Below, in pieces: positions 5,148 through 14,158 of a stretch of DNA of 28,751 nucleotides. The position numbers and the translations under genes are program-made. Numbering within the stretch: the stretch's first letter is position 1; every line of letters starts with the position of its first letter. Source of the DNA: a virus; the IMG/VR virus record IMGVR_UViG_3300046167_000171, positions 1 to 28,751 of that record, one strand, 5' to 3'. A model generated the notes under the pieces. It was not told where the DNA came from. It saw only the letters and a program-made list of their open reading frames with translations, and did no database searches.

Positions 5148-5705
5148 ATGAATAGTTTAGAAGAAGTAATGCTTGGAGTAGTAACCGAGCCATCTGACAA
5201 TATATTACCTTCTAGTTTACCCCAAGGTAAAATACTAGGTTCTAAAAAACCAAAGGGTGAACCTATGTTTGATTCATTTCTTAGTGCAGCTACAAAATAT
5301 TTTGGAGATGATCCCGCTGTACTAGCTGGTCTTACTGGTAACGCTGCTGTAGAAAGTGCTTACAGCTTTGACCCCGCTCAAAAGCAAATCGGCGGAGGTA
5401 ATGGTTACGGAGTTTATCAATTCGATTTTCATAGACCCTATTATAACACATTTCTTAAAGAAAACAACCTTAAAGATAATGTCGATTCTCAAAACAAATA
5501 TGTTTACGAAAACATTTATGGAGATCTTCAAAATATTGTCGGCGAAGGGAACGCTAAAGCTCTTCAAGAAGCATTTAAAAGTGGAGATCCACAACTAATA
5601 AACGAAACATTTAGAACTAAATTTTTAAAACCCAAAAAGGAAAAAGCTCACACAGATAGACGTGCAGCTCAAACAGATTTTTATTTTAACAAATTCACTA
5701 AATGA
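5148..5705 (+). CDS. Phage-type lysozyme (peptidoglycan hydrolase), tail lysozyme-like
   Basis: A 185-residue enzyme resembling the phage tail lysozyme family (Phage_lysozyme2, PF18013). The central segment has the family pattern: a helix with LTGNAAVES, where Glu69 is the likely catalytic acid, then a Gly-rich loop and GGGNGYGVYQFDFHR. The following helices (residues 100-185) end in a lysine-rich tail. There is no signal peptide or membrane segment, so it needs a holin or is carried in the virion. ATG 5148 is chosen because it follows the portal stop by one base; the frame is open further upstream but only within the portal gene. Met40, just before the domain, is another possible start. It is the only peptidoglycan hydrolase I see in the window, so it could serve as endolysin, as a virion enzyme that opens the wall at entry, or as both. 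Confidence 0.75.
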   Translation: MNSLEEVMLGVVTEPSDNILPSSLPQGKILGSKKPKGEPMFDSFLSAATKYFGDDPAVLAGLTGNAAVESAYSFDPAQKQIGGGNGYGVYQFDFHRPYYNTFLKENNLKDNVDSQNKYVYENIYGDLQNIVGEGNAKALQEAFKSGDPQLINETFRTKFLKPKKEKAHTDRRAAQTDFYFNKFTK

Positions 5706-5926
5706 GTTTAGAAAAGGACTTACAATCACTAGGTAATCACGAGCACTTTGCTCGATTCCTAAAAGTAGTAGCAGAGCTTCGTGAAGAAACCATTGAAGAG
5801 CTACATAACGCAAGCAACGAACAGATACAACAAATATCTGGACGCATTCTGACATACGATCAGATACTACAAATGTGCGACTGGAGGAAACTCCAAGTTC
5901 GTTTTTCAGATAGGCTTGATACATAA
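5702..5926 (+). CDS. Small helical protein between lysozyme and scaffold genes
   Basis: A 74-residue, all-helical protein (SLEKDLQSLGNHEHFARFLK; ISGRILTYDQILQMCDW). Its ATG overlaps the lysozyme stop by 4 bases (ATGA), so translation is probably coupled. Short proteins of this character, with a gRilTYdqiL segment, are common between portal and scaffold genes of marine podovirus-like phages, and I read this as one of them. No function is established that I can name; assembly or head-connector accessory is the best inference. The stop codon lies inside the second copy of the 21-base motif (5916-5936), so the regulatory motif and the end of this gene share bases. Confidence 0.75.
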   Translation: MSLEKDLQSLGNHEHFARFLKVVAELREETIEELHNASNEQIQQISGRILTYDQILQMCDWRKLQVRFSDRLDT

Positions 5927-5936
5927 GTTATAATAC
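5916..5936 (+). promoter_or_regulatory. Copy 2 of motif TTGAYAC-N6-TAWWATAY (before scaffold gene)
   Basis: Reads TTGATAC, six bases, TATAATAC. It overlaps the stop of the preceding gene and lies 39 bases before the scaffold ATG. The TATAAT at 5929-5934 is a perfect -10 consensus; the best ordinary -35 (TTCAGA at 5905-5910, 18-base spacer) is weak. Downstream, a short CGCC/GGCG hairpin (5943-5957) and AGGAG (5961-5965) precede the start codon. Confidence 0.45.
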
Positions 5937-5975
5937 ATTTATCGCCATCGCTCGGCGTTAAGGAGTGCAAACATT

Positions 5976-7058
5976 ATGTCAAACGAAATCACAGAGGGAG
6001 TCGCTGAACCCTCAACCGAAACAACAGCGTCACAGTCAAATATGTCAGCAGCGGATTTTGTAAACCGCCGCTTGGGGCAACAGAATGAGGAAACTCAAGA
6101 AGTGGCTCCACCAGTTGAAGCAACAGATGAAGTAACAGAAGAAACCTTGGTCGAGAGTCCAGAGGTAGAAGCAAGTGAAGAAATCGTTGCTGAACAAACT
6201 GAAGAACCGGAAGGTTCCGAAGATGTTCTTTCACAGTTAGATCTAGATGATATGTCCGAAGACGATCTTCGAGAATTATCCGAAAAGCTAGGAAGTAGAG
6301 CAGTCGCTAGATTCGGTGAGCTCACAGCAAAACGTAAAGCTGCTGAAGCAAAGCTGAAAAAGATGGAAGCTCAACTGCAAAATAATAATCCATTAGAAAC
6401 TCAAGAAGTAGCCAATAATCCTTACGCATCAGTAGATACAGTACAAGGATTACAAGAAAAGGCGAAGGAAGTAACAGATGTCATAGAATGGGCAGAGGAA
6501 ACATTATTCAATGCAGATGGCTACGGACCCGAAGATGTAGTAACGGAAGTTGAAGGCAAGGAATTAACTAAGTCAGATGTGCGTAAGAGTTTACTCAACG
6601 CTCGTAAGGCTCGTGATAAGTACCTACCAGCTCAACTACAAACAGTTCAAAGAGTACAGCAGTCACATCAGCTCAAAGAAGCCTTTGATGTACAAGCCGA
6701 AAAGGATTTGAACTGGTTACAAGGAGACGACAATGACGTACGCAAAAGCTACGAAGCTATGATTGGAGATCCTAGATTCAATTCACTACGAGAAAAAGCA
6801 GATCCAGAAGTTGCAGCTCAACTTAACTATCTGATGGCTCACGCAGCGAATAGTATTTATGGACGTAAACCAGTCAAGGAAGCTCCGAAGTCAGCTACGT
6901 TGACACCTCCGAAAGCAGCAATATCTGCCGGAGCATCATCAGATAAAGGTGTGAATAAGTCCGTTAAGGCACTTAAAGACCTTAACCAACGGTTTAGACA
7001 TTCTGGCAACAAGAGTGATTTTGTAACTCTCAGAACACAACAACTTAAAAATCGTTAA
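5976..7058 (+). CDS. Scaffolding / capsid assembly protein
   Basis: A 360-residue protein placed directly before the major capsid gene, the usual position of the scaffold that guides procapsid assembly and later leaves. The N-terminal third is very acidic and low in complexity (many Glu, Thr, Val), with MSAADFVNRRLGQQ near residues 24-37. The middle is a long charged coiled coil (RAVARFGELTAKRKAAEAKL). The C-terminus is basic (KSVKALKDLNQRFRHSGNKS), as expected for the capsid-binding end of a scaffold. The start has a good ribosome-binding site (AGGAG at 5961-5965). Scaffold sequences diverge fast, so the call rests on composition, helicity and position. Confidence 0.8.
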   Translation: MSNEITEGVAEPSTETTASQSNMSAADFVNRRLGQQNEETQEVAPPVEATDEVTEETLVESPEVEASEEIVAEQTEEPEGSEDVLSQLDLDDMSEDDLRELSEKLGSRAVARFGELTAKRKAAEAKLKKMEAQLQNNNPLETQEVANNPYASVDTVQGLQEKAKEVTDVIEWAEETLFNADGYGPEDVVTEVEGKELTKSDVRKSLLNARKARDKYLPAQLQTVQRVQQSHQLKEAFDVQAEKDLNWLQGDDNDVRKSYEAMIGDPRFNSLREKADPEVAAQLNYLMAHAANSIYGRKPVKEAPKSATLTPPKAAISAGASSDKGVNKSVKALKDLNQRFRHSGNKSDFVTLRTQQLKNR

Positions 7059-12707: not shown

Positions 12708-12878
12708 ATGGAATTTTTTAAATATATATTCGATAACTACAAAGACAATATGCTCGGTATAGCATTTGCCTACATTGGTATAATATCAATAGTAGTGATG
12801 TTTTTACCTAAGGATAACTTCATCTCTAAGCTCTTCAAAGAGTTTGCCTCAATCTTTACATCCCTTTTCAAAAAATGA
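12708..12878 (+). CDS. Small one-helix membrane protein upstream of the PEP-CTERM gene
   Basis: A 56-residue protein: a charged N-terminus (EFFKYIFDNYKDN), one membrane helix (MLGIAFAYIGIISIVVMFL, residues 15-33) and a Lys/Phe-rich amphipathic tail (FISKLFKEFASIFTSLFKK). Positive charges lie mainly after the helix, so the C-terminus is probably cytoplasmic. It follows the disordered protein by 2 bases, and its stop overlaps the ATG of the PEP-CTERM gene (ATGA) right after a run of six A. No lipobox or family motif is visible. Like the protein at 11294-11452, it may be a lysis accessory. Confidence 0.75.
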   Translation: MEFFKYIFDNYKDNMLGIAFAYIGIISIVVMFLPKDNFISKLFKEFASIFTSLFKK

Positions 12879-13156
12879 GCCACGAAGCCACAACACGTCC
12901 ACTAGCTATAACAAACTCTGATTACGATTGGGGAGATAACTTTGCATCAAATGATTACAACTATTTTTATGTACCTTCTATTCCAGAATGGGCATACAGT
13001 GAGTTCGATGGATTACTATACGAGGGAGTCCAATACAATTGGAACGAAGTGGATTACAGACTTTCAGTAGAATACAACAGCGTACCAGAACCAGCATTTG
13101 TTGGTTTATTTATGGGACTTTGTTTACTAGCATTAACACTAATAAAGAGGAAATAA
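12875..13156 (+). CDS. PEP-CTERM-tailed protein, phage-encoded
   Basis: A 93-residue protein ending in a classic PEP-CTERM sorting signal: VPEP (residues 70-73), one hydrophobic helix (AFVGLFMGLCLLALTLI, 74-90) and the basic cap KRK at the very end. In bacteria such tails are recognised by exosortase, which processes exported proteins for the outer envelope or for exopolysaccharide-linked matrix. The rest is rich in Tyr, Asp, Asn and Trp (SDYDWGDNFASNDYNYFYV) with no recognisable domain. Notably, there is no N-terminal signal peptide, which normal substrates have. It overlaps the previous gene by 4 bases. It could be a tail-anchored envelope protein, an exosortase decoy, or a substrate using an upstream membrane anchor. 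Confidence 0.78.
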   Translation: MSHEATTRPLAITNSDYDWGDNFASNDYNYFYVPSIPEWAYSEFDGLLYEGVQYNWNEVDYRLSVEYNSVPEPAFVGLFMGLCLLALTLIKRK

Positions 13157-13158
13157 CT

Positions 13159-13239
13159 ATGGACAAATACGGAAAAGGAAGTTGCGGCGAAAGAGTCGGT
13201 AAAGGTAAAGGTAAGATGAAGAAAGGCTACGGTAAGTAA
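13159..13239 (+). CDS. 26-residue Lys/Gly-rich mini-protein
   Basis: A tiny basic protein of 26 residues, mostly Lys and Gly with one Cys (MDKYGKGSCGERVGKGKG, then KMKKGYGK). An AGAGGA ribosome-binding site (13146-13151) precedes the ATG, and its stop overlaps the next start (TAATG). It opens a chain of six very small lysine-rich genes ending at 14158. Coding status is supported by the ribosome-binding site and the tight coupling, not by a known family. Confidence 0.65.
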   Translation: MDKYGKGSCGERVGKGKGKMKKGYGK

Positions 13240-13373
13240 TGCCCGGAGGACTTATATCGGTTGTAGTAATCGGAGACAAGAAGAAGGGTTCTTGTTGCCC
13301 AGCTTGTGCCGCCGAAAGTGAAGCAAAGGCTATACGCCGTCCTAGCGTAGGCTCAACACGTAAGAAAGTATAA
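13239..13373 (+). CDS. 44-residue basic mini-protein with a CCPAC motif
   Basis: A 44-residue protein: a short hydrophobic start (PGGLISVVVIGD), then Lys-rich GDKKKGSCCPACAAESEAKA with a C-C-x-x-C cluster that could bind a metal, and a basic tail (RRPSVGSTRKKV). It is linked to both neighbours by one-base TAATG overlaps, which is the main evidence that it is translated. No function can be assigned. Confidence 0.65.
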   Translation: MPGGLISVVVIGDKKKGSCCPACAAESEAKAIRRPSVGSTRKKV

Positions 13374-13510
13374 TGGCTAAGATTTGTAAAAAAGGAATCG
13401 CTTGGGCACGTAGGACTTTCGATAAGTATCCTAGTGCTTATGCTAATATGGCGGCTAGTAAGTACTGTAAAGATCCTAACTACGCCAAGAAATCTAAGAA
13501 GAAGAAATAA
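13373..13510 (+). CDS. 45-residue basic mini-protein (YPSAYAN type)
   Basis: A 45-residue, very basic protein with two Cys (ICKKGIAWARRTFDKYPSAY, then ANMAASKYCKDPNYAKKSKK). The YPSAYANxxAxKxC pattern is one I have seen repeatedly in small proteins of marine phages, so this is probably a conserved phage family of unknown role. It is coupled on both sides by TAATG overlaps. A nucleic-acid-binding role would fit the charge, as inference. Confidence 0.75.
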   Translation: MAKICKKGIAWARRTFDKYPSAYANMAASKYCKDPNYAKKSKKKK

Positions 13511-13755
13511 TGGGTGAGCTCAAAAAGTGGAGAGAACAAAACTGGGTACGAATCGGAATTGACGGTTCAATCAAAGGACCTTGTGGAACCTCAAAAGATA
13601 AGAAAAGACCAGACCGTTGTCTTCCAATGGCTAAAGCCAAGAGTCTCACTAAGTCTGAAAGAGCGGCTACAGCTCGCAAGAAAAAAGCTGGCGGAGCAAA
13701 AGGAAAACAATTTGTAAGCAACACACCAAAAGCAAAAGTAAGAACCAAGAAATGA
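13510..13755 (+). CDS. Small basic phage protein (WVRIG/GPCGTSKDKK family)
   Basis: An 81-residue basic protein. Its N-terminal part (LKKWREQNWVRIGIDGSIKG) leads into PCGTSKDKKRPDRCLPMAKA and then a Lys/Arg/Ala-rich helix (SLTKSERAATARKKKAGGAK). This arrangement, with two Cys about 13 residues apart and the SERAATARKKKA helix, is typical of a small protein family common in phages (I believe it is catalogued as a DUF; I am not certain of the number). The function is unknown. It lies in the chain of overlapping small genes, coupled to the next by an ATGA overlap. Confidence 0.8.
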   Translation: MGELKKWREQNWVRIGIDGSIKGPCGTSKDKKRPDRCLPMAKAKSLTKSERAATARKKKAGGAKGKQFVSNTPKAKVRTKK

Positions 13756-13916
13756 GTAAAGGAATGCCAATAATGAGGGACGATAAGAAAAAGTCCATAG
13801 GTAGATCATCTATCAAAGATAAAGGAACTAAGTACAATATGCCTACGCTTCCAGATAACTTTGATCTAGACAGACAGAAGGCTGTACAAGAAGCTCATAA
13901 AAGATATTTAATTTAA
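13752..13916 (+). CDS. 54-residue basic mini-protein
   Basis: A 54-residue charged protein (MSKGMPIMRDDKKKSIGRSS, then KDKGTKYNMPTLPDNFDLDR and a helical end QKAVQEAHKRYLI). It overlaps the previous gene by 4 bases (ATGA) and the next by 1 base (TAATG), which supports translation by coupling. There is no recognisable family, no Cys and no hydrophobic segment. Its function is unknown. Confidence 0.65.
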   Translation: MSKGMPIMRDDKKKSIGRSSIKDKGTKYNMPTLPDNFDLDRQKAVQEAHKRYLI

Positions 13917-14158
13917 TGGCAGATAAAAAGAAAATGAAGTGCAACGTACCTCGCCGAGATGTTCAAGGCGGCAAGAAGTTCGTAGTAAAAGCTTGTGAAG
14001 GTGGTAAAGAAAAGATTATTCGTTTCGGAGATGCGAATATGAAAATCAAAAAGAATATACCAGCTCGTAAGAAAAGCTATTGTGCTCGTAGTGCTGGCAT
14101 CAAAGGCAAAGGAAAGATGTCTGCCAACTATTGGTCAAGAAAGGCTTGGGACTGCTAG
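13916..14158 (+). CDS. Small basic phage protein (DUF5754-like)
   Basis: An 80-residue basic protein resembling a small phage family often labelled DUF5754. KKFVVKACEGGKEKIIRFGD is followed by ANMKIKKNIPARKKSYCARS and a C-terminal GKMSANYWSRKAWDC. The family pattern is a beta-hairpin carrying IRFGD, then an Arg/Lys-Ser helix and a final YWSxKxW. Four Cys residues are spread along it. It is the last gene of the small-gene chain and stops immediately before the ATG of the nozzle-like gene with no spacing. The family's function is unknown; its basic surface suggests nucleic acid binding, which is inference. Confidence 0.75.
   Translation: MADKKKMKCNVPRRDVQGGKKFVVKACEGGKEKIIRFGDANMKIKKNIPARKKSYCARSAGIKGKGKMSANYWSRKAWDC

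Follow-up and report, generated by a model that had tools for sequence, protein, structure and literature searches.

A phage gene whose product ends in a PEP-CTERM-like tail, the kind of C-terminus found on bacterial substrates of exosortase, raises the question of whether a phage may use the sorting machinery of its host. Such a gene was analysed in IMG/VR record IMGVR_UViG_3300046167_000171 (positions 1 to 28,751), and the whole 28,751-nt stretch is called the window below. The open reading frame, its coordinates and a tail made of a VPEP motif, a helix and a KRK end had been predicted from the DNA, and all were borne out by the ORF and its translation. The product, named PEP93, starts with MSHEATTRPL and ends with RLSVEYNSVPEPAFVGLFMGLCLLALTLIKRK, and its acidic N-terminal part is followed by VPEP, one hydrophobic helix and the KRK end. 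Most likely, PEP93 is an accessory protein that is displayed at the envelope and uses the exosortase address of the host, with putative processing. The features of the window are listed in Table 1.

Table 1. Features of the window discussed in the text
Feature	Position	Strand	Description
Endolysin-like gene	5178-5705		Phage_lysozyme2 domain (PF18013); between portal and scaffold genes
P135	11449-11856		Holin-like two-helix protein; phrog_38283, no assigned function
P275	11878..12705	+	First gene of the module; always adjoins TM56 (50/50 cassettes)
TM56	12708..12878	+	Second gene of the module; 56 aa, single helix, basic amphipathic C-terminus
ATGA stop-start overlap, TM56/PEP93	12875..12878	+	TGA of TM56 overlaps ATG of PEP93
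PEP93	12875..13156	+	Third gene of the module, short form; 93 aa, acidic N-terminal part, PEP-CTERM-like tail
PEP-CTERM-like tail VPEPAFVGLFMGLCLLALTLIKRK	13082..13153	+	Residues 70-93: motif, helix, basic end

The C-terminal tail of PEP93 and its relatives

Two scans of IMG/VR with PEP93 as query yielded 44 loci encoding relatives, and many more loci were obtained by scans with the neighbouring genes and with P275. The resulting set of third genes comprised 77 distinct products, 58 of them short (window-like) and 19 long (197-207 aa), after two further calls had been left out as artefacts. Signal peptides were scored by hydropathy and by eye, and the gene content of the cassettes was compared by BLAST. 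The curated cut-offs are 20.7 bits for PF07589 (Pfam) and 16 bits for TIGR02595 (NCBIfam).

The comparison with PEP-CTERM HMMs that had been proposed for this gene gave a divided answer, as the window copy remained below the cut-offs of both PF07589 (15 bits) and TIGR02595 (14.1 bits), whereas one relative, L248, exceeded both. PEP93 contains the Pro-Glu-Pro motif and a helix (residues 73-92) followed by the basic KRK end, and it lacks two other features of PEP-CTERM proteins, a score above a curated cut-off and an N-terminal signal peptide. The frame upstream of its ATG is open for 15 codons, none of which is a start codon, and a hidden upstream start or signal peptide was therefore rejected. 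Judged by its sequence, the window copy taken alone is suggestive of PEP-CTERM. In its structure model (pLDDT 70.3, pTM 0.37) all but the helix had low confidence, and no viral fold matched the model at E <= 0.001.

The family as a whole gave a clearer picture. The pattern of PEP followed by a hydrophobic stretch and a basic C-terminus occurred 58 times among the 13,840 distinct ORFs of the loci fetched first, and all 58 matches were module third genes or PEP-CTERM proteins of an uncultured Opitutae MAG described below. PEP was found in none of the other helix-anchored ORFs of these phages. The L248 product, which ends with VPEPSTYALLAGFAVLIFTMIKRRNK, scored 21.8 and 21.4 bits, and that of L178 passed the TIGR02595 cut-off with 16.3 bits. 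When a profile was built from the nine PEP-CTERM tails of the MAG only, ranks 1-21 of 6,001 phage ORFs were taken by module third genes, with a best E of 3.6e-10. The window-like tails matched this profile weakly (E about 1 and above), and their link to the strongly scoring tails is homology and a shared locus rather than score. By these comparisons the tail of the PEP93 family is of PEP-CTERM type, in agreement with the original prediction.

The third gene is under purifying selection, since dN/dS between close relatives was about 0.04-0.21. Only seven columns (G46, Y54, W56, E58, R62, Pro71 and Glu72) were invariant in 52 short forms. PE was present in all 77 distinct products and the complete PEP in 59 (53/58 short and 6/19 long forms), and the PEP-intact short forms were spread across deep branches. 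In the remaining 18 copies, 13 of them long forms, the final proline was replaced, giving IPES, IPEL, IPEM, IPEV, IPEA, IPEQ or VPEF. On the P275+TM56 tree the PEP label changed 8 times, at least 6 of these changes being forced by well-supported branches, while the helix and the basic end were retained. Retention of the helix with loss of the motif in relatives had been named as an observation that would speak against the PEP-CTERM reading; the family answers it in part, as PE was kept in 77/77 copies and the last proline was replaced in 18/77. Dependence on exosortase cannot therefore be assumed family-wide, and the repeated loss of this residue suggests that some versions use the tail merely as an anchor. 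Four distinct copies (L024, L037, L118 and L120) carry 20-30 extra residues after the PEP-type helix and end with a basic, possibly amphipathic C-terminus.

Module organisation and replacement of the ectodomain

The PEP93 gene is never found alone; it comes third in a module, after P275 and TM56. The conserved N-terminal domain of P275 includes a weakly hydrophobic stretch of Gly, Ala, Thr and Val (GTAGSVAVSTAAVAQTTVAV), and in the alignment this domain is followed by an extended linker rich in Ser, Glu, Gln and Lys and then by a C-terminal end that is again conserved. P275 matched no PHROG, and none of its Pfam matches was significant. TM56 was found by HMM in all module loci, and P275 co-occurred with it in 50/50 cassettes containing TM56. 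The three genes stay together while their position changes relative to P135 and to M81, a small basic gene, so the module moves as a block. A zero-offset ATG/GTG overlap was found in 61/79 distinct ORFs downstream of TM56, and 16/79 overlap by 21 nt more. From the sequence, the ATGA is predicted to couple TM56 to PEP93 by re-initiation. A -1 frameshift that would fuse TM56 to PEP93 and thus supply an export helix was rejected because the A-run before the ATGA is not conserved and is replaced in relatives (TTTAAACGATGAG, TTTAAGCGATGAG and TTTAAGAAATGAG).

The module is missing from the complete relative phage C75C1, whose portal is 75% identical and for which no publication was found in the literature search, and from four other relatives (L177, L192, L200 and L280). 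As all five keep P135, the module is accessory. It was present in 50/55 cassettes, a figure that does not represent prevalence because the sampling of cassettes favours close relatives. The same architecture had been proposed as a search target in phage databases, and none was found among 50,697 deposited phage genomes: tblastn with PEP93, P275 and the long form gave no match, nor did tblastn with a consensus PEP-CTERM tail, a short query that may be insensitive. No match to RNA families was found. P135 is conserved across the lineage, including C75C1, and is a candidate holin. In the module-lacking L278 (5421-6086) and L280 (413-1078), a 221-aa repetitive protein rich in Arg, Gln, Pro and Gly directly follows P135. 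Positions 13159-14158 of the window, which separate the module from the tail gene, hold a series of very small, Lys-rich and strongly basic proteins that is conserved in many relatives.

The lack of a signal peptide noted originally holds for the window copy and not for the family, as the 19 long forms begin with a hydrophobic, signal-peptide-like segment and combine a beta-rich ectodomain with the same type of tail. In the P275+TM56 tree, the window and L148, a long form, fall together (support 99/95), and their DNAs are 95% identical through P275 and TM56 as far as the stop codon of TM56. Beyond it the ectodomain regions cannot be aligned, and identity returns, at 89%, from inside the helix. 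L056, also a long form, branches in another part of the tree, among short forms. Sequence comparison thus indicates that the ectodomain of the third gene is replaced on a retained anchor. From the clean swap between the window and L148, it follows that the absent signal peptide is a trait of one interchangeable version of the third gene.

The flank on the N-terminal side of the helix is net negative and that on the C-terminal side net positive in 63/65 proteins. By the positive-inside rule, an N-out, C-in topology is probable for all versions of the third gene; the long forms must take that orientation because of their signal peptide, and the short forms that replace them are therefore predicted to be N-out as well. 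A model of the long form showed a beta-sandwich of moderate confidence (pLDDT 68.7). Its best structural match had a Z of 8.9 over 102 residues (rmsd 2.7), with a Foldseek E of 5.7e-3 for that chain; the best Foldseek hit had an E of 2.9e-3, and the best viral match was an unnamed 198-aa protein (E 3.9e-8). By this weak fold match, the ectodomain of the long form, and of that form only, weakly resembles beta-sandwich domains of the pre-peptidase C-terminal/collagen-binding type and other sandwich domains, from which it differs in having no sequence family match. No cellular homologue of it was found in 384 genomes of the MAG's class, in a search run without a positive control.

Probable host

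The original prediction took the tail to constrain the host to an exosortase-bearing bacterium, which is plausible. The portal of this marine-type, podovirus-like lineage gave a single match in the GTDB collection, a 10.1-kb phage contig with 76% identity in the uncultured Opitutae MAG. This MAG is a CONCOCT bin, and a lone phage contig placed in a bin points only weakly to a host. It encodes 2 exosortases and 9 PEP-CTERM proteins over the cut-off, and an exosortase was found in 74/94 sampled genomes of its class. Distant portal relatives (26-30%) were present in five other genomes of the class. A distant portal relative (28-30%), at G123:C1:3069871-3072006, lies in a 3.75-Mb contig of that class and is probably part of a prophage. 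The phage lineage thus probably infects Verrucomicrobiota, a conclusion held with moderate confidence and in line with the exosortase-bearing host group that had been anticipated. An exosortase-free host is nevertheless possible, since no exosortase match was found in 20/94 genomes of the class. No match to the module was found in the portal-bearing Verrucomicrobiota genomes, and a search for CRISPR spacers gave short matches of 23-33 nt, none of them within a repeat array. On the phage contig of the MAG (L117), the slot between portal and scaffold holds a different, lysozyme-like protein (5299-6042).

Sorting, anchoring and other explanations

PEP93 resembles the substrates of the PEP-CTERM/exosortase system (EpsH; PF07589, TIGR02595, PF09721; PMC1569441) in its C-terminal motif, single helix and basic end. 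Its exposed part is acidic and poor in K and R, as in PEP-CTERM proteins, and the probable host lineage is rich in exosortases and PEP-CTERM proteins. Unlike the single-gene operons of that system, PEP93 is phage-encoded and belongs to a coupled three-gene set; the window copy has no signal peptide, the last proline varies among its relatives and some of their tails are extended. The reading that we favour, tentatively and at a little under an even chance as a whole, is that PEP93 serves a three-gene membrane module as its exchangeable display subunit, is sorted by exosortase when its PEP is intact, and modifies the envelope. P275, TM56 and PEP93 would be translated together. On insertion, the acidic N-terminal part of PEP93 would come to lie in the periplasm and the basic end in the cytoplasm, so that the PEP motif would be on the outer side of the inner membrane, the site of exosortase action; the active site of the enzyme was placed at the periplasmic face by Haft et al. 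(PMC1569441). The short forms would insert N-out as reverse signal-anchor proteins, and the long forms would reach the same place via their signal peptide. Host exosortase probably recognises the tail of the PEP-intact copies and may pass their ectodomain to the cell surface, while copies without the last proline would remain membrane anchors. That this phage family sorts its own variable protein to the surface of the infected cell via host exosortase, and that the short form reaches the enzyme N-out without a signal peptide, appears possible but somewhat doubtful.

Several observations fit this favoured reading poorly. Loss of the last proline in 18/77 copies is not expected of a strict exosortase substrate, nor do the residues past the helix in L024, L037, L118 and L120 fit. 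An export signal is missing from the short forms but present in about 97% of PEP-CTERM proteins of bacteria (Haft et al. 2006, PMC1569441). The assignment of the host rests on one 10-kb contig in a CONCOCT bin and on portal relatives of 26-30%, with no spacer.

The chief rival of exosortase sorting, itself a rather doubtful explanation, takes the tail for an ordinary membrane anchor at the C-terminus, perhaps derived from a host PEP-CTERM tail, in which the P-E caps the start of the helix, the basic end sets the orientation and exosortase is never involved. The invariant PE with a variable second P, and the at least 6 changes of the last proline with helix and basic end kept, would agree with such an anchor, which the extended C-termini favour for part of the family. 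Against it speak the intact PEP in 53/58 short forms across deep branches, the textbook signal of L248 (VPEPSTYALLAGFAVLIFTMIKRRNK) over both cut-offs, the first places given to the family by the profile of the MAG's own tails, and the lack of PEP in other helix-anchored ORFs of these phages. A mere chance resemblance, with a tail-anchored phage protein happening to spell PEP, would be in keeping with the score of the window copy alone below both curated cut-offs; it is very improbable in view of the scores of L248 and L178, the invariant Pro71/Glu72, the background of 13,840 ORFs, the MAG tail profile and the conservation over 77 distinct copies.

The gene had originally been placed in a membrane/lysis cassette, and a lysis-associated (antiholin-, pinholin- or spanin-like) protein with TM56 and P275 as partners could be imagined, as three coupled small membrane proteins adjoin the holin-like two-helix P135. 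Such a role is unlikely: C75C1, L177, L192, L200 and L280 keep P135 without the module, the module shifts its position relative to P135, the endolysin-like gene with its PF18013 domain is elsewhere in the window, and swapping of ectodomains would be unusual in a lysis component. The lysis part of that description was thus not supported. The suggested competition for exosortase could take the form of a decoy, in which the short form without export signal occupies the enzyme and so alters the matrix or surface of the host. The small, tail-dominated short forms with PEP intact in most of them would suit a decoy, yet long ectodomain forms with a signal peptide stand at the same locus on the same kind of tail, and the N-terminal part of the short forms is itself conserved (G46, Y54, W56, E58 and R62 invariant). 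A decoy is consequently quite improbable. Since many relatives are full proteins that have signal peptide, ectodomain and tail, competition was not supported as the principal role.

Among the roles suggested originally, placement of a protein in the host envelope agrees best with the ectodomain swap and the predicted N-out topology. As close relatives exchange the exposed part and keep the anchor and the partner genes, modification of the envelope of the infected cell, for example for superinfection exclusion, would be the likeliest role. Superinfection-exclusion membrane proteins of phages are small, accessory, non-essential and variable envelope proteins. PEP93 is likewise small, accessory, variable and phage-encoded, and no sequence relation to them was found; exclusion is perhaps its function, which is a guess based on its accessory nature and on the swapping of ectodomains.

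The PEP-CTERM system is already known, and what is new here is that PEP-CTERM-like tails occur on a membrane module that is encoded by phages and swaps its ectodomains. No earlier report of a phage-encoded PEP-CTERM protein was found in those parts of the literature that were covered. Most of what is known about sorting by exosortase comes from bacterial genomes, and its role for the cell is little understood. A phage family that keeps, exchanges and sometimes loses the tag provides natural variants for the requirements of exosortase, such as the residues of the PEP motif and the need for a signal peptide. Verrucomicrobiota have barely been cultured, and the module may offer a handle on their phages and is a candidate system for envelope-based exclusion or remodelling.
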